Source of the DNA: Peptoniphilus harei
GTDB taxonomy: Bacteria > Bacillota > Clostridia > Tissierellales > Peptoniphilaceae
DNA: 64,000 bases
NCBI RefSeq assembly: GCF_900454685.1
Contig: NZ_UATM01000032.1
Location: 1 to 64,000, forward strand
Direction: 5' to 3'
Numbering within the stretch: position 1 is the stretch's first letter; every line of letters begins with the position of its first letter. The position numbers and the translations under genes were made by a program. This document shows positions 5,018 to 37,972 of the stretch, piece by piece. The notes under the pieces were generated by a model. That model was not told the origin of the DNA and searched no databases. It was given only the letters and a program-made list of their open reading frames with translations.

Positions 5018-5026
5018 ATATACCTC

Positions 5027-5991
5027 CTATTTCATATTTTTCTCTATCCTTTCTTTAGCTATTTGACAGTAGTCTTTGTTTATGTCAATTCCAATATATT
5101 CTCTGTCCATCCTAATAGCTACCATTCCAACAGTTCCTGAACCCATAAAAGGATCAAGAATTAAGCCTTTTTTAGGACATCCTGCTTTTATACAAAGTTC
5201 TACCAGTTTTGGTGGAAATACCGCATAGTGTTTTCCTTTAAACGCACTGGTGTTAATAGTCCAAATATCTCTATTGTTTCTAAACTTAGGGACATTATCT
5301 CCTATATATTCTCCATACTCTCTTGCTTCATTTATGCTCTGTCTTTTAGCTCCTGTGCCTTCTTGTAAATACTTATTATTATTTCCCCTTGCCCTCATAT
5401 ATCTTTTTTTGCTTATTTCTTTTATTGGTTCTTTCATAGCGTCAAAGTTATAGAAATACTTTCTTGCTTTTGATAGTAGGAAGATATGTTCATAGGACCT
5501 TGATGGTCTATCTCTACAAGACTCAGGCATGGCATTTTCCTTATGCCAAATAATATCGCTTCTTAGATACCAACCATCCTCTCTTAATTTTAAAGCTAGT
5601 TGCCAAGGTATCCCCATTAAATCTTTTGCCTTGTAGCCACTGAGTTTTTCTGTAATAGACTCTTTTTGACCACTTCTTCCTTCTATGTTTTAGGATCTTT
5701 ATATTCTTTTTTGCTTCTTGTACCTGCATAAGAATCTCCAATAACTACCCAAAGTGTTCCTTCTTTTTTTAATACTCTTTTTACTTCTCTAAAGACTTTA
5801 ATTAATTTATTTAAATATTCCTCCGGACTTTCTTCTCTTCCAATTTGTCCTTCTGCTTTATAATCTCTAAGTCCATAATATGGAGGAGATGTAATACAGC
5901 AATCAAATGTTTTATCTGGAAATTCCTTTAGAGCAGAAATTGCATCTAAATTAATAATATAGTTAGTTTTTAACTTCTCTCTGTCTATCAA
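5027..5991 (-). pseudogene. Site-specific DNA methyltransferase (SPPY class), frameshifted
   Basis: The N-terminal part (5683-5991) carries the catalytic motif TSPPYYGLRDY and a VKRVLKKEGTLWVVIGDSY segment. The C-terminal part (5027-5617 and its upstream extension) carries the S-adenosylmethionine motif [13 protein letters not shown] and ends with [12 protein letters not shown]. Together these are a complete N4-cytosine/N6-adenine type methyltransferase of about 320 residues without a partner nuclease. The frame is lost in the A-run at 5688-5691; one extra A restores a continuous protein. Its start overlaps the VirB4 gene end by 29 nt. Such orphan methyltransferases on ICEs are thought to protect incoming DNA or alter regulation; here it is inactive as read. 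Confidence 0.8.
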
Positions 5992-8458
5992 TTTCTATCC
6001 CTTCCTTTAATTCTTCTGGTTTAGTTGTCATTAACTTATACAATTTTGTATCTTTAGGGAATCTATCTACAAAAGGTACTATTGTGTTTCCGTAGAATAG
6101 TAATCCCTCTCCCTCATTGGAATTTGTTACGTAGGATAACTGATAAAGAGATATATTTAACTTGTTCGCTAAAATTTCCCTATCACCACTAGCTTGATTA
6201 AGCATTAAGATAAAATCTGTGTTATCAAATATATTTTCTATTTCAGGACTGGCTAAAAGGTCCTTTACATTTTGTGTTAATCCTGTTGGAATCCCACCCC
6301 ATTTTCTAAATCTTTTCCAGATTTCTATGGAATATGAGGCTGTTTGTTCTTCTCTTAAAAGCAAATGGAATTCGTCACAGTAATATCTGGTTTCCTTCTT
6401 ATTCCTATTAATAGTTACTCTGTTCCATACTTGATCTTGAACAATTAACATACCTATTTTTCTAAGTTGCTTTCCTAATTCCTTAATGTCATAGCAAAGA
6501 ATTCTATTGCCTGTATCTACATTAGTCCTATGGTTAAATACATTAAGACTACCTTTGACATAAATTTCCATTTCTACTGCTAATTTTTTCCCTACCTTTT
6601 CTTCTTGTTTTAAAAGTAAATTATATAAATCTTCTAAAATTGGCATATTTTCAGGAATAGGATTGTCGAAGTAATTCTTATATAATATTGGAAGGCATCT
6701 ATCAATTACTGAAGTTTCTTCTGCACTTAACCCTTCCTTTCCTACTACAAGTTCAAACAGTGAAAGAATAAAGTCAGACTTTAAAGATAAGGGATTGTCT
6801 TCATCGGCATAGTCTACATTTATATCCAACGGGTTTATATAATCCTTACTTGTTGGCGATATTTTTATAACTTCTCCGCCTAGTGCCTTAGTTAAATTTC
6901 CATACTCCCCTTCCGGATCACATATAATGATGTCATCTTGTGTGATTAAAAAAGCATTGGTAATTTCTCTTTTAGCCGAAAAAGATTTACCACTACCAGG
7001 CGTTCCAAGTATTAAACCGTTTGGATTCTTTAAAAGCTTTCTATCTGTCATAATAATGTTACGACTTAAAGCATTTAATCCGTAGTATAAGCTCTCTCCT
7101 TCTAAGCACAGCTCTTCTGTTGTAAAAGGAATAAAGACTGCTGTAGAGCTAGTTGTAAGTCCTCTTTTTATTTCGATTTCATTTTTTCCAAGTGGCAGGG
7201 AGGAAATTAGTCCTTGTTCCTGTCTATAGTTAAGATTTTTCAATACACAATTATGTCTACCTGCTATTGAATTTAGTTGAAAAATTATATTACTCAATTT
7301 CTTTCTACTTTTTTCCATATTTGTAAACAAAATAGTTATGACAAACATTCTCTCATTATGATTTTGAAGTTCTACTAACAGTTTCTTAGCATCATTACCA
7401 TAGGTAATTAAATCGCTTGGAAGAATATCAATATCATATCCTGATCTTATAGCCTTCTTATTTTCTTCAATTTTCATTTTATCCAAGTCCGTTATTTTTC
7501 TTTTAATCATCTTTATAGCTTCTGTTTGATCAATGGAATTTATATGAAATGTTACAATCATATTTTCTTCAACCCCTAAAAATTCTGATAATAATCTATC
7601 TGATAATTCAGGTGCTAGAATTTGCAGAAAGTTTACTTCTCCAAAGTATTCTCCAATTTTAAATTGATTGTGAGATGAAAAGTTAAATGATGCTGGTACT
7701 ATATAATCCTTAGTAGATAGTCCACTATATTTTAGGTCTTCAAAGGAAAAAACAAAATTCTTATTCGGATTTAAGATATCGTGAATAACCTTTAACCTTT
7801 CATATCCACTTAATACATAAGCTTTTACTCCCATCTGCTTAAAGTTATTTAATATATCCATTTCCATTCTTTCAAGTCTTGTAGTTGCCTCTTTTAAATC
7901 TTGTGCTTGTAAGCTAAAGGTGATATACATATATTTAGTAAGTCCATTATTTCCTTTTTGACTCTGATTTTTTAGCATTTCCCTGTACTCTTTTCGTATT
8001 TCATTATATGAATCGTTTCTATCCGGAACATTGATGTTTTTTTCTACTTCTTCATTTTTTCCTATGCGATTAATATATGAAAGTTCTATATCAACACTTG
8101 GATCAAAATAGTTTAAAAAACTTGAAAATTCATTAAATATACTTTCCTTATCTTCTTCTGTTGAAAGCTGGTAGTTAATATCTAAAAAACGTATCATTTT
8201 ATTAAATTTGTTCTTCTCAACTTGGCAAATCCCATTTCTCAACATTCTTAAATAAGGAATTGTTTCCTGAACGCTCTTTTTCTTCTTCCCACCAAAAAAG
8301 GAAAGCTTCTTTTTGGGCTTTCCTTTTTCTTTAGAAATATTTGCTTTTTTCATCTTTTTTTGACTTATACTAATGCTTTTTAAATCTTCTTTTTGTTTTT
8401 TTAAATTCCTTTTTTCTTGATTTAATTTTTTCTGTTGTTTTTTCTGTATTTGATTCAT
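5963..8458 (-). CDS. VirB4/TraE-like conjugation ATPase
   Basis: An 831-residue protein of the VirB4 family, the ATPase that energises type IV secretion channel assembly at the inner face of the membrane. The first 60 residues are very basic. The ATPase half shows Walker A GTPGSGKSFSAKRE (about residue 490), an acidic strand IIICDPEGEYGN and the second acidic motif RYYCDEFHLLL followed by TGLTQNVKDLL. Length and motif order are normal for the family. The start ATG overlaps the upstream PrgI stop by 4 nt, indicating translational coupling. The gene is fully open over 2.5 kb despite many A-runs, in contrast to its broken downstream neighbours. Confidence 0.93.
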   Translation of the reverse strand: MNQIQKKQQKKLNQEKRNLKKQKEDLKSISISQKKMKKANISKEKGKPKKKLSFFGGKKKKSVQETIPYLRMLRNGICQVEKNKFNKMIRFLDINYQLSTEEDKESIFNEFSSFLNYFDPSVDIELSYINRIGKNEEVEKNINVPDRNDSYNEIRKEYREMLKNQSQKGNNGLTKYMYITFSLQAQDLKEATTRLERMEMDILNNFKQMGVKAYVLSGYERLKVIHDILNPNKNFVFSFEDLKYSGLSTKDYIVPASFNFSSHNQFKIGEYFGEVNFLQILAPELSDRLLSEFLGVEENMIVTFHINSIDQTEAIKMIKRKITDLDKMKIEENKKAIRSGYDIDILPSDLITYGNDAKKLLVELQNHNERMFVITILFTNMEKSRKKLSNIIFQLNSIAGRHNCVLKNLNYRQEQGLISSLPLGKNEIEIKRGLTTSSTAVFIPFTTEELCLEGESLYYGLNALSRNIIMTDRKLLKNPNGLILGTPGSGKSFSAKREITNAFLITQDDIIICDPEGEYGNLTKALGGEVIKISPTSKDYINPLDINVDYADEDNPLSLKSDFILSLFELVVGKEGLSAEETSVIDRCLPILYKNYFDNPIPENMPILEDLYNLLLKQEEKVGKKLAVEMEIYVKGSLNVFNHRTNVDTGNRILCYDIKELGKQLRKIGMLIVQDQVWNRVTINRNKKETRYYCDEFHLLLREEQTASYSIEIWKRFRKWGGIPTGLTQNVKDLLASPEIENIFDNTDFILMLNQASGDREILANKLNISLYQLSYVTNSNEGEGLLFYGNTIVPFVDRFPKDTKLYKLMTTKPEELKEGIEIDRQREVKN

Positions 8459-8793
8459 TTACTCCTTTCCTTTCTTTGTTTCTTTATATCATAAATACAT
8501 TCTGTCTTGTATATCCTTATACTTGTCTGTCTTTTCTTATCTATAATATACTTTAAATATTTTTCAAAATAGATCCCGTCCTTTTCATAAAGAGTTGCAA
8601 ATATTATAGGAAAAGACACACCTATCATAATTAACATAGATAGGTCATTAGGCAGCACTTTTTTTACCATTAAATATACTGGAAAGCCTATTAGACCTGC
8701 AATTGTAAAGCCAATTAATTGTCTTTTTGTTAGATTTAGAGCTACCTTTGTTTTTACTTTTGTTAAGTCCTTTGGGACATTTACATAAGCCAT
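8455..8793 (-). CDS. PrgI family (VirB3-like) membrane protein
   Basis: A 112-residue protein with two central membrane segments (LIGFTIAGLIGFPVYLMV and LSMLIMIGVSFPIIFATLY) and the family-typical opening MAYVNVPKDLTKVKTKVALN. PrgI proteins lie directly before VirB4 in Gram-positive conjugative elements and are regarded as the VirB3 counterpart that helps recruit VirB4 to the membrane. Here the stop overlaps the VirB4 start by 4 nt and the start overlaps the upstream gene's stop by one base, as expected of one operon. Confidence 0.88.
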   Translation of the reverse strand: MAYVNVPKDLTKVKTKVALNLTKRQLIGFTIAGLIGFPVYLMVKKVLPNDLSMLIMIGVSFPIIFATLYEKDGIYFEKYLKYIIDKKRQTSIRIYKTECIYDIKKQRKERSK

Positions 8794-9053
8794 TATTCTA
8801 AACCCTCTAAGTAAAAGCCATATATATCTTCTCTGTTCAAATCTTCTAATGATTTTCCCATATTCACTGCTATTTCTAAGACTTTTTCATTCGTTTCTTC
8901 TCTATTATCTAAAACTTCCAATGTTTTTCTTATAATCATTCTATTTTGTATTTCTCTTGTAATATATCCCCCTATTAAAATTATTGGGAGTCCTATTGTT
9001 CCAAGTGTTTTTAAATTAATTTTTTTGTCCTTTTTTCTTCTAATTTTCATCAT
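8793..9053 (-). CDS. Small ICE membrane protein, unknown
   Basis: An 86-residue protein with a basic start (MMKIRRKKDKKINLK), one hydrophobic segment (TLGTIGLPIILIGGYI) and a hydrophilic C-terminal half. It lies between the TrbL-like and PrgI genes, a position where clostridial conjugative elements often carry a short single-span protein. I do not recognise a named domain. Conservation of position and tight coupling to PrgI (1-nt overlap) suggest a minor channel component. Confidence 0.65.
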   Translation of the reverse strand: MMKIRRKKDKKINLKTLGTIGLPIILIGGYITREIQNRMIIRKTLEVLDNREETNEKVLEIAVNMGKSLEDLNREDIYGFYLEGLE

Positions 9054-9067
9054 CTTCTCCTTTTTTA

Positions 9068-9931
9068 TTAATGAGCATTTAAAATTGATTTTGCAATACT
9101 TCCTGATTTCATCATAGTTATACCAAGTATTAAGGTGTATCCTAGTAATTCAAAAATACTTTTGTGTATGTCTGATATATTTAAAGTCTTAACAAGTACG
9201 GCATAAATTCCTACGCATATAAGTAAGAATAAACCTTGCAAGCCAAGTGCGAAGAGCCCTCTTATATAGTTTGTTCCAATACTTCCCCATTCTTTATTAC
9301 CCATTGTGGCAAAAGGTATGGCGCAAACTGAAGTATAAATATATATTTCTATCATCCTGCCGTATAGAATAACTGTAATGAGTATTGATATCCCTTGAAT
9401 TATCATCTTTACAATTGCTGTCTCTAGTACTATAGTCATTAATTTTCCTATTGACTCTCCTTTTAGGCTATCTACCATATTAGCTATATCACCTGGAGAA
9501 ACTTTTGCACTAGCATTTGCCACACCTGCTGCCTTTCCTATTAAATTCTGTGCCACATCAAAGACCGCCATTGAAAACTCAAAAGCATGAGATACAAGCC
9601 ATACAGCAATCCACATCTTGATGATGTACTTAAAAAATTCAAAGGTATCCGTATCATGCATATTATTTTTGTTCATTACCATTTGAATTAATTCAATACA
9701 TAGTACAGCCGTTATGATAAGACCTGCTATGGGAAGTATAACATTTTCTGAAATGGATTTTATGAAGTGAAAAACCTCCGAGTTCCATCCACTCGGAGTC
9801 TTTCCTACCTCATTTGCTATCGTTGATACTTTGTCATTTATATCAAGGAGCATTCCGCTTAAATTTTCCTTGATCATATCAATAAGTATCTCCGAAAAAA
9901 ACTCTTTGATCTTATCTACTATATTAAACAT
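9068..9931 (-). CDS. TrbL/VirB6-like conjugation membrane protein
   Basis: A 287-residue polytopic protein with about six membrane segments, including VILPIAGLIITAVLCIELI, IIQGISILITVILYG and LFALGLQGLFLLICVGIYAVL, and a soluble loop near residues 140-165. The segment order and the signature around AIPFATMGNKEWGSIGTNYIRG match the VirB6/TrbL proteins of CTn/Tn1549-type elements, which form the inner-membrane part of the DNA channel. It begins 2 nt after the end of the Maff2 gene. Intact. Confidence 0.88.
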   Translation of the reverse strand: MFNIVDKIKEFFSEILIDMIKENLSGMLLDINDKVSTIANEVGKTPSGWNSEVFHFIKSISENVILPIAGLIITAVLCIELIQMVMNKNNMHDTDTFEFFKYIIKMWIAVWLVSHAFEFSMAVFDVAQNLIGKAAGVANASAKVSPGDIANMVDSLKGESIGKLMTIVLETAIVKMIIQGISILITVILYGRMIEIYIYTSVCAIPFATMGNKEWGSIGTNYIRGLFALGLQGLFLLICVGIYAVLVKTLNISDIHKSIFELLGYTLILGITMMKSGSIAKSILNAH

Positions 9932-10033
9932 TTTATTTTAACACGTTTGCTAATAGCGGTATTAGTTTTAAACCTATGAGTACAATTCCCCCTCCAGCCA
10001 TAAGCTGCTTAATGCCTTGAGATTTAGCACCAG

Positions 10034-12782
10034 ATAGTGATAGGTAATCCTTTGATGTTATCTCCGGATTTTCCCCCACTTCACACCGTGCATGCGACTT
10101 TCACCGCACACGGCGTTCCATCACAAGAAAGATTTTCACGTTTTAACTAAGACTTACACACTTCGTAACAAATTATTTTTTTTCTAAATTAGTGGCAATC
10201 CTGCCATTTTTCTAAGCTTATTACATTTCTCGATCTGCTTGACCGTTAAGCCAAGCTCTTTTATATATTTTTGGATTGTATCTTCTTTTGTTGCATGGAT
10301 AAGTATATGAACTGCTTCTGTAACAAGAATTAAGTTGCTATAACTGTCTGTACCGCCTTGTTCAAGCGGTATCTTGTGATGGCAATGTATATCGTTTGGT
10401 GTAAGTTTTACACCTGTTACCCCACATCTTCCATATTGAGCTGCAAAGAGCGAGATTCTGTTGTCTGCAAACTCTATACTCTTATCAAGTACAGGATGTC
10501 TCATCAACCAAACAAGTGTATCTACATCAATTTGCAGATTTTTATGAATAAAAGCTCTGCCCTTTACAGTGTATTTATTTACAACCTTTTTCTTGTGTTT
10601 TGCGTCCTTTGTCCTAATATATCCAACTGGAATTAGCGGATGTCCATTAAGGAAGCGAAGCTGTTTACTTTTTCCATATTTTTCTTTGATAAATCCTTTG
10701 TTTAGCGTTCCACTGGTTTTAATATCAAGTCTGTTGTTCATCTGCTTTTTAATGTGAAAGGCTATTTTAGCAAAGTCCAAACTTACATTTGTTGCTATTT
10801 GGTAGTAATTATGCAAGCCTGAAACAGTGGCATTATACTTGGCTATTGCTTTGTACTGTTCCTTTTTGTTTGCAGGTCTTTTTATATCCGCAACACATTT
10901 AGAAATATCTTCTTTTGCATTTTTCAGTGCCTTATCACTTATATGCGACTGTACAACAAACTTTTTGCCTTTTGGTTTAACCTTCAGCTTGAAACCTAAG
11001 AACTCCGAATACTTTTGTTTTAGATTTGTTATTTTAGATTTTTCTTCACTTACATTTAGTTTTAATCTGTCTTGCAACCATTTTGTAACTGCCTGATAGG
11101 TTCTTTTTGCATCGTAGTAATTACGGCAAAATATCTTAAAATCATCAGCATACCTTACAATGTATATTTCTTTTAGGTTGCTTGTTCTTAAAGCTCTGTA
11201 GGTATGGCTTTTTATCTCTGTTCCTTGACTGTTCGTTCTCTGTTTATATGGATAATGCGTGGGCATTGTCAGCCATTGAGAAGAAACCCACCAATCTAAT
11301 TCGTTCAAGACTACATTAGATAGTAGCGGTGATAATATACCGCCTTGTGGTGTTCCCTTTGTTGGTGTAATTACCTTTTTATCGGGCATAACTATGTCTG
11401 CTTTCAGCATTTCCTTAATGATACAAAGTAGCTTTTTGTCTTGGATACCCAAATTCCAAAGTTGCCTTATGAGCTTTGCATGATATACATTGTCGAAAAA
11501 TCCTTGTATATCAATATCAACTACATAGTGTAAGTGCTGTATCTGCATTAGTCTCGCACATTCTGCAATAGCGTGTTCCGTACTCCTGTTAGGTCGAAAC
11601 CCATAGGAGCTGTCATGAAACTTGGCTTCACATATCGGCTCTAATATTTGCAAGATACAGTGTTGTACAATTCTATCTACAATAGTTGGTATTCCTAAAG
11701 GTCTAATTTTCCCATTAGGCTTTCGCATTTCCACTCTCTTTACAGGGCGTGGTTTATACCAATGAAACTGTTTTTGTATGAGAGAAATGTATTCTTCTTC
11801 ATTTAGCCTTGATAGATGTTTTATTGTTCTGCCATCTACTCCGGCTGTATGACTTCCTTTGTTCCCTTTGATACTGCGATAGGCAAGTTTTATATTTTCT
11901 CTTGAAGTTATCAACTCCATTAAATTTGAAAATACTTTATTCTTACTGCTATCTTCATATAAATCATCAAGGACTTTTTGCAAGTCATAGTATTCCGTAT
12001 AACGGATTTTGCTTTGTTTCAGTGTTTGTTTCGAAGTGGACACAGTCACCATCTCCTTTCGGATTTGATTTTCTTTGTCATACTCGAAGCTGTGTTTGTC
12101 TTAATTTCAGTTCTTGTACTTTCCTGTGACTGGTGGCTATCCCTCCACGAACTTATTATTTTCGCTTCATAGGTACTGTGCCACCACTTTCACCGAGATA
12201 AAGAATGGTTATATGCTGTTTTTTACAGTCATTTTCCCATTCAACACTTCATTAGCATTAGACTGCTTCCATGCTCTTGGCTTACCACGTTCCGACAATC
12301 TTATCTTTGAATACGTTTAGGTTCTTCCTCTAAGCCTGTGTTTAGTTTTCACCATATCGCCTGTAACGATATATGGATTTTCATAACAACCATTCTTACT
12401 CATCCACAAACACCCCATCTTTGATGGGAATTGCCGTTAGGCAAATTCAAACGTTTAGACCCTTACATTCGAAAGTACGTCAGTGCTTTGGTATACACAT
12501 TCTCACCATGCGTATTCGACACCCGACATATAGGTAGCACCGTCCACCTCTGAACAGCTTTCGTGTCTGATGTTAATATCAGTCTTACGGCTACTCTCTG
12601 CCGACTTCACCGAGCTTTTGACAATGAAATAGTCTAATATTCATTGCCAATCGGAGTATCAGTGTAGGCATTTCAGGGCGTTACCCCGTCATTCTACCTA
12701 TCAGATTGCCAGTTCTCCTAAGTTTTGAACTTTCAGTCCTTCGACTTAGTGCATAAGCTTTTCACTTATGAACGTGTCGCAC
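10034..12782 (-). mobile_element. Group II intron (2749 nt) with encoded maturase
   Basis: The 5' end reads GTGCGACACG, matching the GUGYG consensus, at 12782. The 3' end shows a domain V hairpin near 10067-10112 (arms around GTGCGGTGAAAGTCGCATGCAC) followed by a domain VI stem, ending in ...ACTAT at 10034. Both ends were fixed by requiring the flanking Maff2 codons to join in frame. The 730 nt upstream of the maturase (12053-12782) are domains I-III and hold no other gene. Group II introns splice as RNA and move by target-primed reverse transcription; conserved ICE genes are common targets. Confidence 0.9.
10184..12052 (-). CDS. ltrA: Group II intron reverse transcriptase/maturase
   Basis: A 622-residue intron-encoded protein. 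The reverse transcriptase domain carries RPLGIPTIVDRIVQHCILQI, GTPQGGILSPLLSN and the catalytic YADD (IVRYADDFKIFC, about residue 300). A maturase (X) domain follows, then a C-terminal HNH endonuclease with CGVTGVKLTPNDIHCHH and NLILVTEAVHILIHA. It promotes splicing of the surrounding intron and its insertion into DNA. Complete length and all motifs are present, so the intron is potentially mobile. It lies in intron domain IV, as is usual. Confidence 0.95.
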   Translation of the reverse strand: MVTVSTSKQTLKQSKIRYTEYYDLQKVLDDLYEDSSKNKVFSNLMELITSRENIKLAYRSIKGNKGSHTAGVDGRTIKHLSRLNEEEYISLIQKQFHWYKPRPVKRVEMRKPNGKIRPLGIPTIVDRIVQHCILQILEPICEAKFHDSSYGFRPNRSTEHAIAECARLMQIQHLHYVVDIDIQGFFDNVYHAKLIRQLWNLGIQDKKLLCIIKEMLKADIVMPDKKVITPTKGTPQGGILSPLLSNVVLNELDWWVSSQWLTMPTHYPYKQRTNSQGTEIKSHTYRALRTSNLKEIYIVRYADDFKIFCRNYYDAKRTYQAVTKWLQDRLKLNVSEEKSKITNLKQKYSEFLGFKLKVKPKGKKFVVQSHISDKALKNAKEDISKCVADIKRPANKKEQYKAIAKYNATVSGLHNYYQIATNVSLDFAKIAFHIKKQMNNRLDIKTSGTLNKGFIKEKYGKSKQLRFLNGHPLIPVGYIRTKDAKHKKKVVNKYTVKGRAFIHKNLQIDVDTLVWLMRHPVLDKSIEFADNRISLFAAQYGRCGVTGVKLTPNDIHCHHKIPLEQGGTDSYSNLILVTEAVHILIHATKEDTIQKYIKELGLTVKQIEKCNKLRKMAGLPLI

Positions 12783-12897
12783 GGTTGTCATTCCCATAAC
12801 CTTCCATCAGGTTGATAACACCCCATGCTCCAAGCCCTGCACCAATTGCTGTAACTAATATTTTTAATACATTTACTGCTTGTGTAAAAAATTCCAT

Positions 12898-13221
12898 TTA
12901 TATTTCCTCCTCTTTTTCTTCTTTTTTAATTTTATTTATGTGCTTTACGATAAAATTTTTAAATGTCTTGTCTTCTTTTTTTGTTTCCTTAAAATATCCA
13001 AAAATATGGATGTATTCTCCACTTTTAAATTCCTTCACACTTTTTGCCTTTTCTCCGTAGAGATTACAGTAGATATATTCTTTTTTAACCTTTCCTTCTT
13101 CTTTGTTCTTTCTAACTATTGTGAAGTTAGCTACTTCTTTTTCTCCTTCCTTTGTATCTATTGCAGTTGTTTTTATTTCTCCTACTAGATTTCCATTAAT
13201 ATTTAGCATTTCTCTTTCCAT
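12898..13221 (-). CDS. Single-stranded DNA-binding (OB-fold) protein, ICE-encoded
   Basis: A 107-residue protein with an SSB-like pattern: GNLVGEIKT, then KEVANFTIVRKNK, an aromatic strand KKEYIYCNLYGEKAKSV, and KSGEYIHIFGYFKE. It is short and lacks the acidic DDDIPF-type tail of housekeeping SSB, ending instead in KKEEKEEEI. ICE SSB proteins coat the transferred strand. The start is set by AGGAGAT ten bases upstream. Its stop abuts the Maff2 start. A minus-strand terminator lies 30 nt upstream (13251-13272). Confidence 0.75.
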   Translation of the reverse strand: MEREMLNINGNLVGEIKTTAIDTKEGEKEVANFTIVRKNKEEGKVKKEYIYCNLYGEKAKSVKEFKSGEYIHIFGYFKETKKEDKTFKNFIVKHINKIKKEEKEEEI

Positions 13222-13250
13222 TTGTTCTATCTCCTTTATTCCATAAAAAA

Positions 13251-13272
13251 AGCGATAGTTTTCTCTATCGCT
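13251..13272 (-). terminator. Intrinsic terminator upstream of the SSB gene
   Basis: Perfect arms AGCGATAG and CTATCGCT, followed on the minus strand by seven Ts. It insulates the SSB operon from the abi unit. Confidence 0.75.
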
Positions 13273-13369
13273 TCTACTTCTAATTAATTAATATTTCATT
13301 TTTCTCTGTATCTTATTTTTTCGGCTCATCTCGTATATATTTCATTCTTCCTCCTTTGGGCATAAAAAA

Positions 13370-13393
13370 ACACCGAAATGTTTTTTTCGGTGT
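13370..13393 (-). terminator. Intrinsic terminator of the Abi gene
   Basis: Arms ACACCGAAA and TTTCGGTGT with seven Ts on the minus strand, 19 nt after the abi stop codon. With the separate promoter at 14347-14375 it makes abi an independent transcription unit inside the ICE. Confidence 0.8.
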
Positions 13394-13411
13394 AAATTTC
13401 TCTATTTAATT

Positions 13412-14275
13412 TTATGGTTTTAGTAATTCTTTCCAGTTTTCTATAAAGCCAACATGTCTTAGTTCAATATTTTCATATCTTGCTATTAGTTCCGTTAGAT
13501 CATGATAAAAATTTTTGTAATTTTCTTCTTCAGAAACTATTTTAAGATTAACTAATGTAGCAAATATTGTATTGTTTGAAATATTATTTTTTAAATATTC
13601 TTTATATAGCTTTGGTGATTTTGTAAGCTTTGCTCCATATAGCCTGCCATAATGGGCACATATATTTCTTATATAGGCAAAATTTTCTATCCAAGATTCA
13701 AAGTAATGGTAGTCTGTATGAAAGACTTTTGCAATTTTACTTTTATCTTCATTTTTCATATTCTTATACATTTTAGATAAAGTTCCAAAACTTGCTACTT
13801 CTATCACTGCATAGAGTGGAATTTCTCCACCTTCATAATTGTCTTTAAAGTTTTTTATAAATGGTGAGCGTCTATTTCTTTTAACTTCCCTTGCTAATTC
13901 TTCTAGTACCCTTTCTTGTTCCTTTTGTTTCTCAAAATTATTCATATCTTTATATGAAAAGTTCCCATATCTTAAAGAAAAATAGTTTGTGATAACTGCT
14001 CTTAAAGAAACTTCAATATGCTCTATTGTTTCAAATATAAGCTGTCTAAGTTCTCTATCAAATTTATATAAACTTACAATATCTTCAAAACTTATTCCTG
14101 ATATATATCTTCCATCTTTTTTTAATGTGATACTATAAGCTTTAATCAGCCTGTAATAGGATATTCTTCCAAGAATTTTCTTAGCATAAGTTTTATCTTC
14201 TACTAAAAGTCCTAAGTCTATTAAGTTTTTTACTTGATTTTCTATACTAATCGGTTCTTGATGAATTTTTTTCAT
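13412..14275 (-). CDS. Abi_2 family (AbiD/AbiF-like) HEPN abortive-infection protein
   Basis: A 287-residue protein from ATG 14275, chosen over an upstream ATG at 14314 because AGGAGAAAA precedes it. The opening QVKNLIDLGLLVED, the block KILGRISYYRLIKAYS and the central LYKFDRELRQLIFETIEHIEVSLRA are hallmarks of Abi_2. Near residue 203 it carries the HEPN ribonuclease motif RNICAH (R-N-x-x-x-H), followed by YGRLYG. Members cause abortive infection against phages, and AbiF-like proteins have been linked to adjacent structured RNAs and to the ancestry of Cas13 HEPN domains. Here it has its own promoter, leader RNA and terminator within the conjugation operon, indicating a cargo defence cassette. 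Catalysis is inferred from the motif only. Confidence 0.88.
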   Translation of the reverse strand: MKKIHQEPISIENQVKNLIDLGLLVEDKTYAKKILGRISYYRLIKAYSITLKKDGRYISGISFEDIVSLYKFDRELRQLIFETIEHIEVSLRAVITNYFSLRYGNFSYKDMNNFEKQKEQERVLEELAREVKRNRRSPFIKNFKDNYEGGEIPLYAVIEVASFGTLSKMYKNMKNEDKSKIAKVFHTDYHYFESWIENFAYIRNICAHYGRLYGAKLTKSPKLYKEYLKNNISNNTIFATLVNLKIVSEEENYKNFYHDLTELIARYENIELRHVGFIENWKELLKP

Positions 14276-14289
14276 TTTTTCTCCTAAAA

Positions 14290-14342
14290 TCAAATGACCC
14301 GACTTGGTCCGCATTGTTAAGAGGCGTGTCGGGTACTGTTGA
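14290..14342 (-). ncRNA. Candidate structured RNA upstream of the Abi gene (abiF-motif-like)
   Basis: The transcript predicted to begin near 14340 can fold with perfect 7-bp arms ACCCGAC and GTCGGGT (+ strand 14328-14334 and 14297-14303), with inner CGC/GCG pairing. The hairpin ends about 20 nt before the abi start codon. A structured RNA class next to abiF-type genes is known to me; whether this matches its consensus needs a covariance-model search. It could also be an mRNA leader only. Confidence 0.5.
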
Positions 14343-14346
14343 CATT

Positions 14347-14375
14347 ATTATATGCTATAAAATATTTTTTGTCAA
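14347..14375 (-). promoter_or_regulatory. Fully consensus promoter of the abi unit
   Basis: TTGACA at 14370-14375 and TATAAT at 14347-14352 with a 17-nt spacer. Both hexamers match consensus perfectly, unusually strong for a defence gene and more typical of a stable small RNA. Confidence 0.85.
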
Positions 14376-14426
14376 GTAATTTCTTTTAATCTTTCCTAAA
14401 TATCTATCTTACTTCTAATTTTAAAT

Positions 14427-16229
14427 TTATTCATCTAATATTTCAACTACCATACTCTCTTTTAACTTAACCTCATCTTTTCTCTGCAGGTATTTCTCTA
14501 TGTCAAATATATTTCTCTTATCATAATCTTCCAATAACTTATAATTCTTATGTTTAGTAATATCAAACTTATCAGATAGAAAAGGTCTTACTCCTCTTAG
14601 TTGGTATATACACTTACCACCATCCATTACAGTTATTTCATCTTGACTCATAAGTTCCTTACCAGTTTTTTGATAATTTAGTCCAAAACTCTTTTGATTC
14701 GATCTTGTTTCTGATGTGTTATATAGGTCTATGGTTTCTTTGCCTAGGCTTTCAGATAATTCTTTTAATGTTGTTCTTTCTTTGCCTCCTAAAAATAATG
14801 TAGAATCACAATTGCCAACTATGGTATCTGCATTATCTTTATAGATACTTTTTAGTTGTGATTGTGCTTGTAATATTATACAAGCTGATATTTCTCTACT
14901 TCTAATAGTTGCTATCAGCTTTTCAAATTTAGGAATTAAGCCGATATTTGCGAATTCATCAAGTAGGCATCTCACATGAACAGGAAGTCTTCCGCCATAT
15001 TCATCATCTGCTTTATCACATAATAGATTAAATAATTGTGAGTACATTATTGATACTACAAAGTTAAATGTATCATCTGTATCCGATATTATTACGAATA
15101 AAGCTGTTTTCTTTTCTCCAAGTGTATCAAGCTCCAGTTCATCTTCTTTCATTAAGTCCCTAAGTTCCTGAATATCAAATGGAGCAAGCCTTGCTCCACA
15201 GGATATAAGGATTGATTTGGCAGTTTTTCCTGCTGCTAGTTTGTATTTCTTATATTGTTTTACTGCGAAATGGTTTGGCTTTTCTTTTTCTAATGCTTCA
15301 AACATATAGTCTACTGCATTTTTAAAATTTTCATCTTCTTCTCTTACCTCACTTGCATCTATCATAGCAAGTAGAGTTGTAAAGTTCTGTTCTTCTTTAG
15401 GAGCTTCATACCAGATATATCCTATAAGTGCTGTGTAATAGAGTTTTTCAGCTTTTACCCAAAAATCCTCAGTTGATTTTTCTCCTTCTCCCTTAGTATT
15501 TGCAATTATTGTTTGTACTAATTTCAAAATATCTTTTTCACTTTTCAAGTATGCAAAGGGATTATATCTCATGGATTTTTTAAAGTTTATTGTGTTTAGT
15601 ATTTTTATCTCATATCCATTTCTTTCCAACATTTTCCCACATTCTAGGACTAATGTTCCTTTTGGATCGGTTACTACATATGAAGAGTGCATTTGCATGA
15701 GATTTGGCTTTACAAAAAACCTTGTTTTACCACTACCAGAACCTCCAATTACCATTACATTTTTATTTCTCGCATATTTTGGATTTTTAGGTCTATTATT
15801 CATGGTAAGTCTTTCAGTTTGAGTTAGTAGCACATTGTTTTCAAACTTCTTGTCAATGTATGGCTCAATGTCTTTTTCATTTCCCCATCTTGCCGATCCA
15901 TATTCTCTGCCCTCTCTAAACTTTTTTGCATTTTTCTTTTTCTGTATAAGGATTAACTTAATAACTACTGATAGAATTAGACTGGGTATCAGGTTTTTTA
16001 TTTTTAATGATGGAATATATTTTAAAGTATCTATTTGACTAAAAGCTACTAGAATTCTATCTATTATATCTCCTCCTACATAAGAGTTGACATGGCTTGC
16101 AAAGATATTTCCTATATAAAAAAATAAGAGGTAAGGAAGATTTTCTAATACAAATTTCTTCTTATCTCTTATCTTAAAAACATTTTTTATATCTTTTATT
16201 ATTTCATTTAGTATTTTCGAATTAATCAC
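14427..16229 (-). CDS. VirD4/TraG-family type IV coupling protein
   Basis: A 600-residue membrane ATPase that brings the relaxase-DNA complex to the secretion channel. Two N-terminal membrane segments (LPYLLFFYIGNIFA and LIPSLILSVVIKLILI) precede the motor domain with Walker A VIGGSGSGKTRFFVKPN (near residue 160), DPKGTLVLECG, and Walker B HVRCLLDEFANIG. The motif order and length are typical. Downstream in the ICE lies the abi cassette; upstream is a terminator at 16249-16262. Intact. Confidence 0.93.
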   Translation of the reverse strand: MINSKILNEIIKDIKNVFKIRDKKKFVLENLPYLLFFYIGNIFASHVNSYVGGDIIDRILVAFSQIDTLKYIPSLKIKNLIPSLILSVVIKLILIQKKKNAKKFREGREYGSARWGNEKDIEPYIDKKFENNVLLTQTERLTMNNRPKNPKYARNKNVMVIGGSGSGKTRFFVKPNLMQMHSSYVVTDPKGTLVLECGKMLERNGYEIKILNTINFKKSMRYNPFAYLKSEKDILKLVQTIIANTKGEGEKSTEDFWVKAEKLYYTALIGYIWYEAPKEEQNFTTLLAMIDASEVREEDENFKNAVDYMFEALEKEKPNHFAVKQYKKYKLAAGKTAKSILISCGARLAPFDIQELRDLMKEDELELDTLGEKKTALFVIISDTDDTFNFVVSIMYSQLFNLLCDKADDEYGGRLPVHVRCLLDEFANIGLIPKFEKLIATIRSREISACIILQAQSQLKSIYKDNADTIVGNCDSTLFLGGKERTTLKELSESLGKETIDLYNTSETRSNQKSFGLNYQKTGKELMSQDEITVMDGGKCIYQLRGVRPFLSDKFDITKHKNYKLLEDYDKRNIFDIEKYLQRKDEVKLKESMVVEILDE

Positions 16230-16248
16230 TTCCTCTCCATAAAAAAGA

Positions 16249-16262
16249 GTAGATTTCTCTAC
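16249..16262 (-). terminator. Small intrinsic terminator before virD4
   Basis: Arms GTAGA and TCTAC with a four-base loop, followed on the minus strand by a T-run. Weak stem, so attenuation rather than full stop is possible. Confidence 0.5.
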
Positions 16263-16273
16263 CCATTAGTATC

Positions 16274-16480
16274 TTATTTATCTTTTTTATATCTTATTAC
16301 TGGAACTTGTTTTATTTTTTTACCTATCTTTTTTCTTTCCAAGACAAACATCATATTTTCATTTCTTTTAAAATATCCTAAATCTTTATGATAACTTATA
16401 CCACACTTGCAATGTAATAAACCTATAAACTGTTGTCTCATCTTTGAGTTACATATAGGACATATTTTTTTATTTGTCAT
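16274..16480 (-). CDS. Small zinc-ribbon protein of the ICE
   Basis: A 68-residue basic protein with two Cys pairs, CPICNSKMR near the start and LLHCKCGISYH in the middle, making one probable zinc ribbon; the C-terminal half (ERKKIGKKIKQVPVIRYKKDK) is strongly basic. It may be related to the Cys-rich KTR proteins seen in Tn916-type elements, but the match is weak. Nucleic-acid binding is a reasonable guess. It is open and well placed between virD4 and the RelE remnant. Confidence 0.6.
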   Translation of the reverse strand: MTNKKICPICNSKMRQQFIGLLHCKCGISYHKDLGYFKRNENMMFVLERKKIGKKIKQVPVIRYKKDK

Positions 16481-16498
16481 TTTGAACCACCATTATAC

Positions 16499-16638
16499 TT
16501 ATATTTTACTTTCAAAGGTATTTTTTAGTTTCTTTCCTAATGCTTCTGCTCTCATTTTTTATCTATAGATAAGAGAAATTCTTCTACTGGATGATTCCAA
16601 TCTTCTTTTTCATAGTATTCAACAATAAAGCTATTCAT
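16499..16638 (-). pseudogene. Remnant of a RelE/HigB-type toxin
   Basis: From ATG 16638 the frame reads MNSFIVEYYEKEDWNHPVEE then FLLSIDKK and stops; one extra A in the T-run 16555-16560 would continue it as MRAEALGKKLKNTFESKI and a stop. The pattern (short beta-strand start, PVEEFLxSLDKKMRA) is that of phage-derived RelE/HigB ribonuclease toxins, normally about 110 residues. The C-terminal two thirds are missing and no antitoxin gene is next to it, so this is a decayed fragment. Confidence 0.6.
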
Positions 16639-16677
16639 GCCTTCTCATCATATATATTATATATCCAAGTGTTTTTA

Positions 16678-17169
16678 TTATAAACTTTGTTCCTGATGTT
16701 TATGTTTAACCTTATCTCTGTCAATAGTATCTTTGACTTTATCCTTGAAGTTATTAAGCCTTTCTATTACAGATTTTCTCTTTCTTGACTTATCTTTAGT
16801 AAATTTCTGGACTGTCTTTTTAAAAGCTTGTTCCATTACTTTTATATCTTTTGCTTGAAAAAAGATAATGTTGTTTCCATTTTCTAAATCTTTCTTTATG
16901 GAAAACTTCACCCCATATCTTTTTAATTCTTTTTTCAATGCTTTTAAGTCTATGTCATTTAATTCTAAGGTTTCTACTTTACCTTTTTTTACAAGGTCTT
17001 TTACTTTTACTTTTTTAAATTTTTCTAAGGGTCTTGACTGTTCTGTCTGCGCTTTATGTTTATTTATTTCTAATATTTTCTTCATCAAATTTATAACTTG
17101 CTTGGCTGTTACTATACTTGCTTTTTTTACTATGGCTATTGTTCTGCTATTTATATCATCATTTTGCAT
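16678..17169 (-). CDS. PcfB family (DUF3801) conjugation protein
   Basis: A 163-residue, basic, soluble protein. The start region RTIAIVKKASIVTAKQVINLMKK and the middle block TLELNDIDLKALKKELKRYG followed by VKFSIKKD match PcfB/DUF3801 proteins, which precede the coupling protein in pCF10-type and CTn-type transfer regions. PcfB is thought to link relaxosome and coupling protein. The C-terminal tail is Lys/Arg-rich. It lies 14 nt after the DnaC-like gene. Confidence 0.82.
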   Translation of the reverse strand: MQNDDINSRTIAIVKKASIVTAKQVINLMKKILEINKHKAQTEQSRPLEKFKKVKVKDLVKKGKVETLELNDIDLKALKKELKRYGVKFSIKKDLENGNNIIFFQAKDIKVMEQAFKKTVQKFTKDKSRKRKSVIERLNNFKDKVKDTIDRDKVKHKHQEQSL

Positions 17170-17183
17170 TCACTCACCTACTT

Positions 17184-18039
17184 TCATTCTTTTTTTAATA
17201 TTTCATAGGCTAATTTTGATTTCTCCTTCATTTTTTCTATTCTTCTATTTTCTCCTGTAAATATAATGGGACTGCATATTTCAAGTATCCTTGAGTAAAT
17301 TCTTTTATCTTTTATAGTTTCAGGATTAGTTAAAGCTGATATATTTAAGTTTGTTGTTATAATCAATGGTTTCCCACTTCTATATCTACTATCTATTATG
17401 TTAAAGATATGCTCAGCTGCAAAATCTGTATCTCTTTCCATTCCAAAATCATCAATAATTAATAGTTTCTTCTGATTTAGGTTATCTATATACTTACTTT
17501 ATCAATCTCAAGTTAGTCATATCATTTAAAATTACTGAAAAATTTGTCATTTTGACTGATATTTCTTTTTCTAGTAAAGCATTTGCTATAGCACTTGCAA
17601 GATATGTTTTTCCACATCCCACATTCCCTGTGAGAATTAATCCTATATTATTTTCATATATTTCATCAAATTTTTCCACATAGTTTTTTGCTACTTTTTC
17701 ATGCTCACTATCTTTGTCCATATTTTTAAAATTCCAATTTAATAGGATGGGATCAGAAAAACACTCTTTTTTTAAGTGTTCAATTTTCAAAAGCCTTTTA
17801 TTTTCTTTTCTTTTTTCTTCCTCTAATTTTTGTCTTTCTTTTTTACATTGACATAAAATACCAACTTTTTTTATTTCTCCAAAGAAGTCTATTTCTTTTT
17901 CAATTGGTGTTTTACATTTTGCACAATATTTTAATCCTGTTTCTTGATCTATATAACTCCTATTTTCTTCATCTTTTGATGGACTATTTGTTTCTGCATT
18001 TTTTATTTTCTGTTCTAGGATTTCTTTTATTAATTCCAT
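17184..18039 (-). pseudogene. DnaC/IstB-like ATP-binding protein, frameshifted
   Basis: The first part (17494-18039, ATG chosen behind AGGAGAGGAG) holds a coiled N-terminus, a CAKCKTPIEK...ILCQC zinc-type cluster and Walker A LTGNVGCGKTYLASAIA. The second part (17184-17441 and its upstream extension) holds Walker B LLIIDDFGME and the sensor region KPLIITTNLN. Together this is a full DnaC-like helicase loader, usually next to RepA_N initiators on ICEs. One base is missing in the A-run at 17498-17500; adding one A joins the two parts. The protein as read would stop just before Walker B. Confidence 0.82.
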
Positions 18040-18053
18040 ATGCTCCTCTCCTA

Positions 18054-19031
18054 TCAAGTATTTAAAATTTCTCTCCATATATTCTCATCGTTACTATAGT
18101 CATAGTTTTCTCTTTTCTGATTTTCTCTCTTTATGACTTCTATGTTTCTAATATTTTCATCTGCATTGTATAAGAGAGTCAGTAGATAAGCATTAATGTT
18201 TCTAATATCCTTTGGAGCATTTTCTCTTAGGTATTTCAAAACATAGTCTATGTGTTTATAGTTAAGACTTAGAAATCTTTCTTTAAAATTTTCATTGGAT
18301 ATATGCCTCCCTCCTATTTTAATGTTTGTAAAGCTAGTTAAGGCTTTTACAAGTACATTTATCATCACATCTACTTGCTTCTTTTCTTCTATTCTTGCTT
18401 TTTCAAAGGTTTCATAAGATATATTCTTTTTTATAGTTTCTTTTAATTCTTCCTCCTCCAAAGTTTTTTTTGATTTTTCTCCTAGCTTTTCTAAGGGGGA
18501 TATGGGGGTGGTATTATTAAAATCAGTATTATTAGTTTCAGTATTATTAATATTAGTATTATTAGAGTCCTCTTTTGAAACTTCTTGAGATTTATTTTCT
18601 AAACTTCCTGAAGTTTGTTTTTTAAACTTCTTGAGGTTTGCTTTTGAAACTTCTGTAGTTTTATTATTTTCTGTGTAAATAAAGTTCTTTACATAGAGTA
18701 AATTTGGCTTTCCAAGTCCTAACCTCTTTTTTTCTAATAATCCTATCTCTTCAATTTCTTTCATTACTTTGACCGATTTATTTCTCCCCCAATTTAATAC
18801 TTCCATAATTTCTTCTATGGTATAGATGATGTATACCTTGTTTTCTTCATCTAACCATTTATTCTTAATTGACAAGCTCATTCTATCGAGTAGAATTCCA
18901 TAAAGAATTTTTGCTTCTACGGATAGTTTTTTAAAATTTAAGTCGGTAAATAAAGTTTTGGGAATCCTAAAAAATGAATATTGTTCTGCTTCATTGCCAT
19001 AATAGTATTCAAATTTAACTATTTCTTTCAT
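18054..19031 (-). CDS. RepA_N-type replication initiator of the ICE
   Basis: A 325-residue protein from ATG 19031, chosen for its AGGGGG ribosome site. The N-terminal winged-helix domain contains YSFFRIPKTLFTDLNFKKLS, AKILYGILLDRMSLS and NKVYIIYTIEEIMEVLNWG, the signature of RepA_N initiators. A low-complexity Asn/Thr linker follows (near residues 150-180), then a C-terminal helical domain. Such proteins start rolling or theta replication of the excised ICE. The linker is encoded by AT-rich repeats that may contain iterons (ATTATTAGT-like triplets near 18500-18560). Confidence 0.88.
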   Translation of the reverse strand: MKEIVKFEYYYGNEAEQYSFFRIPKTLFTDLNFKKLSVEAKILYGILLDRMSLSIKNKWLDEENKVYIIYTIEEIMEVLNWGRNKSVKVMKEIEEIGLLEKKRLGLGKPNLLYVKNFIYTENNKTTEVSKANLKKFKKQTSGSLENKSQEVSKEDSNNTNINNTETNNTDFNNTTPISPLEKLGEKSKKTLEEEELKETIKKNISYETFEKARIEEKKQVDVMINVLVKALTSFTNIKIGGRHISNENFKERFLSLNYKHIDYVLKYLRENAPKDIRNINAYLLTLLYNADENIRNIEVIKRENQKRENYDYSNDENIWREILNT

Positions 19032-19055
19032 CATAACCCCCTTTCTTTTCATATA

Positions 19056-19088
19056 AAAAGAGATAGCTTTGATTTTGCTATCTCTTTT
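19056..19088 (-). terminator. Intrinsic terminator between the ICE membrane gene and repA
   Basis: Arms AAAAAGAGATAGC and GCTATCTCTTTTT around a nine-base loop; the T-rich right arm also makes it a terminator on the opposite strand. Confidence 0.7.
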
Positions 19089-19117
19089 TCATCGTTTTAA
19101 TCTATTTATTTTTATAT

Positions 19118-19408
19118 TTAAATTGCTTTTATTCTTTCATTCACCTCTTCTATCACTTCTATAATAAAATATCCTAGCACTGGCAAACCATAAGGACTAA
19201 AAAGATATGCTAGTATAATTGCCTCTATAGCGATTGCTTTTTCTCCATTATAAACAGATCCTAAAAATCCCATAATAGCGATAAATGAAATCAGTTTGAA
19301 AAATATTGTGCTGATTCCTAATACAAACGTTAAAAATAGAGTGATGATACTTAACGCTATACTAATAGGAAACAATATGATTTTGAAAAAAACTCTAAAT
19401 ATTATCAT
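19118..19408 (-). CDS. Small ICE membrane protein near the element end
   Basis: A 96-residue hydrophobic protein with three to four predicted membrane spans (LFPISIALSIITLFLTFVLG, LISFIAIMGFLGSVY, AIIL AYLFSPYGLPVLGYFII) and a short polar tail. No family recognised. It lies between the presumed ICE end and repA, a position where CTn elements carry a similar short membrane protein. The ribosome site is weak (GAAGAG). Confidence 0.6.
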   Translation of the reverse strand: MIIFRVFFKIILFPISIALSIITLFLTFVLGISTIFFKLISFIAIMGFLGSVYNGEKAIAIEAIILAYLFSPYGLPVLGYFIIEVIEEVNERIKAI

Positions 19409-19451
19409 ATTCTCTTCAATCCTTATTACTTATGTTTTCTTTTCTTTTTTG

Positions 19452-19691
19452 TTAATTTAATAAAAAAGATGACAGACTTAATCCTAAATCATCTTGTTTA
19501 AAAGTTTTGTGGAAGCCTTTAAACTTTGATTTTAATGGATTTATTGTATCTGTCATCATTATATCACTGTCCCCTGCACCGTTCTCCCCAATTAGTCCAA
19601 GGACTGCACCTTCAGGAATTTCTAAATTTTCTATATCAAGGTCAAAGTCCTTAAATTCTTTTCTCAAATTATTTATTTCTATTGTTTTCAT
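19452..19691 (-). pseudogene. ABC transporter ATPase, truncated at Walker A by the ICE
   Basis: The 5' half encodes MKTIEINNLRKEFKDF and EGAVLGLIGENGAG, the start of an ABC ATPase up to Walker A. The expected K-S/T and all later motifs are missing; the frame runs on into unrelated sequence from about 19572 (GGGGACAGTGATATAATG). It follows the GntR gene (4-nt overlap), the usual GntR-ABC arrangement of YtrA-type operons. I infer that the ICE inserted here and that the rest of the gene lies beyond the left edge. Confidence 0.75.
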
Positions 19692-20068
19692 AAGTCACCC
19701 ACTTCATCTAATGTCTTTAAAATTTCTTGCAATTCGTCTATACCAATTCCTGCAGCCTTGGCAACAGTCATTGCGTCAGTTAAATATTTTTCTATCTCTG
19801 CAAGAGCATTCTCTCTTACAACTTCTTCATTTAATTTTTTTACAAAGGAACCCTTGCCTGGCATGGAATAAATATATCCCTCTTGCTCCAAGTCATTGTA
19901 GGCACGCTTTGTTGTAATGACAGAGACCTTTAGGTCGCTTGCAAGAGTCCTCATACCAGGAAGCCCTTCGTCAGCTTTTAAGTCTCCAGCAACTATCTGA
20001 GCCTTGATTTGATTTTTTATCTGCTCATAAATTGGAAGGCCAGAGTCATTTGAAATAATAATTTTCAT
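19688..20068 (-). CDS. GntR-family (YtrA-type) repressor
   Basis: A 126-residue regulator. The N-terminal winged helix contains GLPIYEQIKNQIKAQIVAGD, LPGMRTLASDLKVS and TTKRAYNDLEQEGYIYSMPGK followed by GSFV; the C-terminal part is only a short helical dimerisation segment, as in the YtrA subfamily. Such proteins repress a neighbouring ABC transporter operon, often in response to cell-wall stress. Here its ABC partner is truncated. A copy of its likely operator lies in its own promoter (20085-20102) and another before the CPBP protease gene. Confidence 0.9.
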   Translation of the reverse strand: MKIIISNDSGLPIYEQIKNQIKAQIVAGDLKADEGLPGMRTLASDLKVSVITTKRAYNDLEQEGYIYSMPGKGSFVKKLNEEVVRENALAEIEKYLTDAMTVAKAAGIGIDELQEILKTLDEVGDL

Positions 20069-27904: not shown

Positions 27905-28092
27905 TAAAAAAAGCCCCTCAATCCCTAAAGGGACGAGAGACCCGCGTTGCCACCCTAATTAACCAAATGGTTCACTTAAAATTACATAGACTATGAGGTG
28001 GATTCATCTTAAAAACTTTACAAGTTTCCACCAGCCACCTGCTCTCTTAAAAACTTTTTAAAATTACTATTCTCAATTATCGCCTTTTTTAG
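27905..28092 (-). promoter_or_regulatory. T-box leader (serine) of serS
   Basis: The minus-strand leader contains the T-box sequence AGGGTGGCAACGCGGG (27941-27956), a stem I with an AGTA-type loop, and a likely specifier TCC (Ser) within GATGAATCCACC. A hairpin with GTCCC and GGGAT followed by TTTTTTT (27905-27945) is the terminator. Uncharged tRNA-Ser should allow read-through into serS. Promoter TATAAT at 28101-28106 with TTGAAC upstream. Confidence 0.88.
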
Positions 28093-37792: not shown

Positions 37793-37852
37793 TTTTCTTT
37801 TCCTTGACAATTTAATTTCTAGTGTTATTATAAATTTATAAGTTAATAAAAT

Positions 37853-37954
37853 TCTTCAGGGCGAGGCGCAATTCCTCACCGGCGGTAAAGTCCGCGAGCG
37901 AAAGCTGAATTGGTGCAATTCCAATACCGACAGTATAGTCTGGATGAAAGAAGA
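37853..37954 (+). promoter_or_regulatory. FMN riboswitch (RFN element) of the riboflavin operon
   Basis: It contains the conserved blocks AGGGCGAGGCGCAATTCC, TCACCGGCGGTAAAGTCC, GCGAGCG and ACCGACAGTATAGTCTGGATG in the right order. FMN binding should favour the terminator at 37973-37997. Promoter upstream: TTGACA (37804-37809) and TATTAT (37826-37831). Confidence 0.96.
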
Positions 37955-37972
37955 TAATTTTTTTTGAATTTT

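Follow-up and report, generated by a model that had tools for sequence, protein, structure and literature searches.

A compact AbiF–abiF RNA unit in a Peptoniphilus conjugative element, and solitary phage abiF RNAs as likely antitoxin mimics

We analysed a stretch of 64,000 nucleotides from Peptoniphilus harei (contig NZ_UATM01000032.1; the whole stretch is called the window) whose minus strand encodes an AbiF-like protein of the Abi_2 family behind a strong promoter and a short structured leader matching the abiF RNA, flanked by genes of a conjugative element. Because AbiF with its RNA is already known as a type III-like toxin–antitoxin (C. difficile RCd22, PbAbiF), the locus is a member of that class, with a compact leader. 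We consider it quite probable that the window holds an AbiF–abiF RNA unit carried as conjugative-element cargo, in which the conserved hairpin just before abiF would serve as the antitoxin of a predicted HEPN ribonuclease. What is new is the occurrence of the antitoxin RNA alone in phages; the literature searched, which did not cover Weinberg 2017 or Zilberzwige-Tal 2025, yielded no publication tying AbiF-free phage abiF RNAs to counter-defence. The unit and its neighbours comprise the following features.

14370..14375, minus strand: −35 hexamer TTGACA, matching consensus jointly with the −10 hexamer at 12/12 positions over a 17-nt spacer; conserved across loci
14347..14352, minus strand: −10 hexamer TATAAT; transcription start at A14340, predicted and not mapped
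14297..14333, minus strand: abiF RNA (RF03085), by Rfam match and covariation; an outer stem (CCCGAC/GTCGGG), an inner stem (CGC/GCG) and, within the loop, one additional pair that covaries
14286..14297, minus strand: U-rich tract 3′ of the stem, UCAUUUGAUUUU, a putative leaky intrinsic terminator; T-rich in AbiF-linked RNAs and in orphan RNAs (those without AbiF)
14281..14285, minus strand: Shine–Dalgarno sequence AGGAG, by sequence
13412..14275, minus strand: abiF gene, Abi_2 HEPN protein of 287 aa with ATG at 14275, by Pfam, PADLOC and AlphaFold2 fold
13652..13669, minus strand: HEPN RNICAH motif, residues 203–208; R203 and H208 are the same in all 27 sequences aligned
13370..13393, minus strand: intrinsic terminator 3′ of abiF, by terminator scan
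14427..16229, minus strand: upstream neighbour, a type IV coupling protein (T4CP) of VirD4/TraG type, Pfam T4SS-DNA_transf E 2.2e-59
12898..13221, minus strand: downstream neighbour, a single-stranded-DNA-binding-protein-like (SSB-like) gene, Pfam SSB 22.5 bits, under the cut-off of 26

An earlier reading of the window from its letters (the sequence-only reading) had called an AbiF-like Abi_2 gene with an RNICAH motif, a perfect-consensus promoter and a terminator of the gene's own, and all three were recovered. The protein matches PF07751 at 188.4 bits against a cut-off of 25.6 (E 2e-55) and AbiD in PADLOC at E 3.6e-94; a search of NCBIfam gave no match. Its AlphaFold2 model (predicted local distance difference test score, 93.2) found as best Foldseek match PDB 8vz6, PbAbiF bound to its non-coding RNA, with template-modelling (TM) scores of 0.85/0.83 (E 4.3e-14), and no other chain at E 0.001. 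The predicted protein thus resembles PbAbiF of the PbAbiF–AbiFr pair (PMC12737573) in fold (TM 0.85), in sequence (E 1.1e-28) and in having a non-coding RNA partner; it differs in sharing 27% identity, in a comparison made at the protein level. TTGACA-17-TATAAT is the sole 12/12 promoter match on either strand of positions 5000–20000, where promoter-like sites overall are rarer than in shuffles (50 versus a mean of 69.0), and the predicted start coincides with the 5′ end of the abiF RNA, 65 nt before the ATG.

The sequence-only reading had proposed a covariance-model search for the abiF RNA, and this returned RF03085 at 38.1 bits, narrowly above the gathering score of 37 (E 0.0025 when all families are searched over the whole window, 8.6e-5 over a 2.2-kb stretch). 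The 7-bp hairpin it had noted, with arms ACCCGAC (14334–14328) and GTCGGGT (14303–14297), is real and falls within this match; it does not stand immediately before the ribosome site, as had been said, since about 11 U-rich nt intervene. That reading had also staked itself on two comparisons, covariation of the stem among homologues and recurrence of promoter and hairpin before other copies of the gene, and came through both. Across 28 distinct AbiF-linked RNAs, 93.6% of structure cells are paired (84.0 in shuffles) and both sides have changed in 31 cells (11.5 in shuffles), while sliding the structure by 1–3 columns leaves 24–40% paired; two of five covariation measures, pairs with double change and further pair types, did not exceed shuffles in this set. 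An additional loop pair, absent from the displayed Rfam structure, is U-A in 24 and C-G in 4 of these 28 RNAs, and C-G in 34, U-A in 14, U-G in 2 and C-A in none of 50 distinct viral RNAs, for which the search pattern had left both positions free (Y and R). Test values for the loop pair, and for the U-tract described below, ignore relatedness. A promoter matching at least 9/12 positions precedes 33 of 39 distinct AbiF-linked loci (32 at 10/12 or better; 9/12 is reached in 8.9% of shuffles that keep single-base content only), its −10 hexamer ending 12–14 nt 5′ of the stem, and the 5′ flank AACAG, putatively the first bases of the RNA, is exact in 30; seven of the 39 loci are near-identical copies of the integrative and conjugative element (ICE).

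The arrangement is that of type III toxin–antitoxins, with an RNA upstream of the toxin gene under one promoter, as judged from sequence and promoter match. The window has no separate intrinsic terminator between RNA and toxin gene, where 22 nt separate the end of the stem from the start codon and the RNA tail extends into the Shine–Dalgarno sequence, and no tandem antitoxin repeats: one motif lies in the window, and the four that the genome has include no head-to-tail pair. The distance from RNA end to start codon is 22–32 nt in 31 of the 39 linked loci (with automatic start choice), which leaves no room for a separate terminator. Because our terminator scan handles loops of 3–8 only and is blind to the long-loop hairpin of the leader, we examined the U-tract instead. 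In the 39 linked loci, T residues number 6.33 per 10 nt just after the stem and 2.46 further down; the corresponding figures are 5.93 and 2.55 for 73 viral orphans, and 6.19 and 2.01 for the 26 among those 73 whose local GC is at least 50%. Given the missing room and the T-rich tail, the antitoxin hairpin may be its own leaky terminator and the toxin mRNA its read-through product; protein contact with the RNA tail would be an alternative account of the same conservation.

ToxN is not known to be a HEPN protein. Like the window unit, ToxIN and the other type III systems have an RNA antitoxin that lies upstream of an endoribonuclease gene and is co-transcribed with it (PMC12373285). Another related system is C. 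difficile AbiF–RCd22, which likewise has an Abi_2 protein with a HEPN motif (RNQCAH there), an upstream abiF RNA motif and a promoter serving both RNA and gene (SigA there), and for which binding and neutralisation of AbiF by the RNA are reported in cis and in trans (PMC12373285). In the proposed mechanism, the strong promoter is predicted to start transcription at the 5′ end of the RNA; the GC-rich stem and U-rich tract would then end most transcripts and release a short RNA, and read-through would supply the toxin mRNA. The RNA would bind an AbiF dimer and block its ribonuclease site, as reported for relatives, and AbiF sitting on the leader, only 22 nt upstream of its start codon, may also hinder its own translation; phage attack would then disturb the balance and free AbiF. 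The idea in the sequence-only reading of an RNA-controlled HEPN unit whose promoter serves the RNA is supported by the abiF RNA, by the AbiF HEPN protein and by the predicted start at the 5′ end of the RNA. Its proposal that the RNA 'restrains or guides' the protein divides in two: restraint agrees with the C. difficile and PbAbiF work (PMC12373285, PMC12737573), whereas guidance found no support, there being one near-invariant motif and no variable part.

The sequence-only reading, accepted here in part, had missed that this RNA also occurs alone in phages. A first pattern scan of IMG/VR found the RNA core in 46 contigs, and a second found at least 120 stretches, of which 80 were listed, 69 of them new, and 47 of the new ones were searched for Abi_2. 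Whole-record searches found Abi_2 in 6/46 records of the first scan and, among the matches listed, 1/47 of the second, so that 86 of the 93 records searched gave no Abi_2 match. The outer stem lay outside the first search pattern save for its last 5′ base; it is paired at all six positions in 26 of 33 distinct orphans from that scan (shuffled 3′ arms: mean 2.9, maximum 10 in 2000) and at five or more in 29, among which there are 20 different 5′ arms. In the second scan, among the matches listed, 43 of 50 distinct RNAs pair 6/6, one of the 50 (L256) being AbiF-linked. A model search of the orphan loci matched 50/50 sources; as these had been picked by core pattern or similarity, it is not independent evidence, whereas the outer-stem tests are.

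Ten named phage regions were picked out of a set of 101 similar records that included many weak hits, so counts on them are not a rate: phiNIT1, SBSphiJ, P59, Bp8p-C, Lactobacillus P2, Enterococcus SHEF4 and MF-DL, Staphylococcus SapYZU04, Streptococcus Javan129 and Sulfurimonas SNW-1. All ten match a model (R1) built from AbiF-linked RNAs only, with E values no worse than 3.6e-6 for the eight other than phiNIT1 and SBSphiJ (in SHEF4 and MF-DL the match spans just the core), and none has an Abi_2 match anywhere in its record. None reaches the Rfam gathering score, which five of ten IMG/VR orphans scored alongside do. The minimum-energy fold contains the outer stem in six of the ten; the arms of SBSphiJ, SHEF4, MF-DL and SNW-1 were paired by eye only. 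Phage RNAs hold a constant core inside stems of differing letters that are mostly paired; GUUAACU/AGUUAGC and GACUUAGC/GCUAAGUC are examples from the named phages.

In P59 the RNA stands between tRNA-Asp and tRNA-Pro in a cluster of 15 tRNAs. In Lactobacillus P2 it abuts tRNA-Gly and has terminase genes on either side, and in two Efquatroviruses it also lies between terminase genes. Among the matches listed, 14 of the 82 distinct viral orphans have a same-strand tRNA within 150 nt, where random placement in the same loci would give 2.70; none has one on the other strand, and the remaining 68 have no same-strand tRNA so near. Phage tRNA clusters with an abiF-like RNA also contain ROOL (L120) or skipping-rope RNAs (L127, L193, L201). 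The recorded host of P59 is Cytobacillus oceanisediminis, the species from which three of five plasmids with a close AbiF–RNA unit come.

On this evidence the phage RNAs are likely AbiF inhibitors that mimic its antitoxin, decoys that would keep AbiF silent. We incline, somewhat short of conviction, to a broader proposal: that abiF antitoxin RNAs which stand alone and terminate themselves, in some cases within tRNA clusters, serve several phage groups (Bacillus Herelleviridae, Lactobacillus Tybeckvirinae, Enterococcus Efquatrovirus, a Staphylococcus phage and many uncultured viruses) as a widespread RNA counter-defence against AbiF, with the ICE-borne unit of the window one such target and its hairpin doubling as a terminator that sets the toxin–antitoxin ratio. 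There are precedents. Phage phiTE carries a pseudo-ToxI, a phage RNA mimicking a type III antitoxin (PMC3475682), although that case concerns escape mutants of one phage that arose by repeat expansion against ToxIN, and the structured abiF RNAs here come from several groups of phages and have no AbiF with them. A broad precedent is offered by Racr RNA anti-CRISPRs, solitary copies of a host immune RNA element in phages; they mimic CRISPR repeats (PMC10651486), whereas the phage abiF RNA would mimic an AbiF antitoxin. Cyanophage S-CREM1, which has many tRNA genes, also has an abiF small RNA (PMC9964418), reported as one Rfam hit whose role is left open and which, in the text consulted, is not linked to the absence of AbiF or to anti-defence (PMC9964418; also PMC12197685).

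Several observations count against these interpretations. By folding energy alone the window leader is no better than chance (z −0.97; 29 of 200 shuffles give folds as good); our evidence for structure is covariation. The U-tract is interrupted in the window, so termination may be weak there. The window unit has neither the separate terminator of published units nor the two motifs of the C. difficile one: RCd22, with both, starts 168 nt before its ATG (PMC12373285), against one motif, no separate terminator and a start predicted 65 nt upstream of the ATG in the window. The stem scanner found no RNA at 6 of 45 distinct AbiF frames, which include one of C. difficile type, two with masked DNA upstream, one at a locus edge and one (L083) with a longer-loop RNA seen by eye; and among 249 genomes of the source's order 78 have Abi_2 and 46 the abiF RNA, so that not every Abi_2 is paired with the RNA. 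On the viral side, 4 of the 33 distinct first-scan orphans pair at most 4/6 in register and many contigs are fragments. Among the matches listed, a sigma-70-like promoter of at least 9/12 precedes only 10 of 82 orphans and exact AACAG flanks only 9 of 82 (30 of 39 in linked loci), which makes transcription of the orphan RNAs only putative. Finally, 77 RNA hits in bacterial genomes (14 of them placed by known coordinates before classification) divide into 45 with intact AbiF, 9 with AbiF fragments and 23 without AbiF, so bacteria also have orphan RNAs and some phage copies may be relics.

Of the competing accounts, the one we take most seriously, while still thinking it improbable, is that the phage RNAs have a function of their own unrelated to AbiF, for instance in tRNA clusters or packaging, and that AbiF recruited an existing RNA. 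Their place in tRNA clusters, some also with ROOL or skipping-rope RNAs, and beside terminase genes fits this account, and host AbiF was looked for in only a minority of these phages; set against it, the core, the extra loop pair and the U-rich tail are the same as in AbiF-linked RNAs, and plasmids of the species recorded as host of P59 carry AbiF with its RNA. That the orphans are relics of lost abiF genes is unlikely: AbiF fragments do stand behind the RNA in the nine bacterial hits just mentioned, and L039 keeps only the last AbiF residues, but viral stems have been rewritten and remain paired, both among the scanned orphans with their many different 5′ arms and in the named phages, and decay does not yield rewritten paired stems.

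For the window itself, the hairpin could be only a cis-acting leader that AbiF or another factor binds to repress abiF translation, with no free antitoxin RNA. The closeness of stem and start codon, the tail running into the Shine–Dalgarno sequence, the lack of a separate terminator and the near-constancy of RNA and tail among homologues down to 65% protein identity all suit such a leader; the occurrence of the same RNA in phages and bacterial genomes with no AbiF gene following it does not, nor does the published action of RCd22 in trans (PMC12373285), and we give this account a small chance. We rejected the notion that the RNA guides AbiF to targets as a CRISPR RNA guides Cas13, and hold it to be very improbable: although Cas13 is reported to descend from AbiF (PMC12737573, PMC12165695), the RNA has no variable spacer and is a single motif, near-invariant across loci, and the 287-aa protein has one RNICAH and one Abi_2 stretch in place of the two HEPN domains of Cas13. 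If, as we prefer, solitary phage abiF RNAs silence AbiF, a reported Cas13 ancestor (PMC12737573), RNA mimicry against this defence would be common. Phage P59 with the AbiF plasmids of Cytobacillus oceanisediminis, and SBSphiJ-group laboratory phages on Bacillus subtilis, are testable pairs, and the compact leader suggests that one hairpin, both antitoxin and terminator, could set the toxin–antitoxin ratio.

The sequence-only reading had also placed the unit as cargo within a conjugation operon, and the related loci agree. At 26 of the 30 such loci in named genomes (Anaerococcus, Peptoniphilus, Finegoldia, Fenollaria, Ezakiella, Urinicoccus and others; mostly 92–99% protein identity), the flanking DNA retrieved holds both a T4CP and an SSB-like gene, and other genes occupy the same place in related elements, among which no pristine empty site for the unit was found; L100/L101 was considered as one and rejected, since its junction resembles a deletion at an AAAGTT repeat. 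The genome of the window carries the element a second time (L036, alike over at least 15 kb, RNA at C5:1433732), and contig C1 has a third, damaged and partly inverted region. Its two AbiF alleles (window 14275–13412 and G000:C5:1433069–1433614) show 51 aligned differences, 38 of them within nt 300–420 (residues ~101–134), by which pattern the difference is a mosaic or recombination patch; their RNAs score identically (38.1 bits).

At the same site in L184 (2479–4061), promoter and abiF RNA are kept and AbiF is absent, replaced by an RNase H1-like and then an RnlA-like frame (Pfam Cauli_VI 3.3e-19, RNase_H 2.7e-11, RnlA-toxin_DBD 2.4e-21; PADLOC gave no match on the L184 frames), followed by an open reading frame (ORF) that we take to be RnlB. 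There, a HEPN toxin of another family stands behind the abiF RNA leader. L102/L182, from a different genome, starts like L184, and L160 retains the RNA although nothing after it matches AbiF; with L184, it indicates that the RNA can outlive the toxin at this element site. In the group of L050, L044 and L052, an orphan abiF RNA faces, on the other strand, either another Abi_2 gene (L050, ~28% identity) or, by eye, a hairpin resembling that gene's leader.

Elsewhere in the element, 10034–12779 (minus strand) of the window has group II intron matches with a reverse-transcriptase-like ORF (10184–12052) between the TrbL and SSB-like genes, and other element copies in the genome lack this segment with a clean junction. 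The T4CP gene is split near residues 330–386 by an insert of ~12–17 kb in several genomes (for example G109:C1:1931181–1946195 and G149:C3:245018–261570), and in L005 a relaxase-looking ORF, so judged by eye, lies upstream of the C-terminal T4CP piece. Before the SSB-like gene, 13345–13313 (minus strand) holds a micro-ORF, MKYIRDEPKK, with a Shine–Dalgarno sequence and flanked by two T-run hairpins (13393–13370, and ~13271–13250 by eye); similar short ORFs occur at the same place in related elements, perhaps as an attenuator. Farther off, the window contains a flavin mononucleotide (FMN) riboswitch at 37848–37959 (plus strand) and a T-box leader at 27926–28089 (minus strand).
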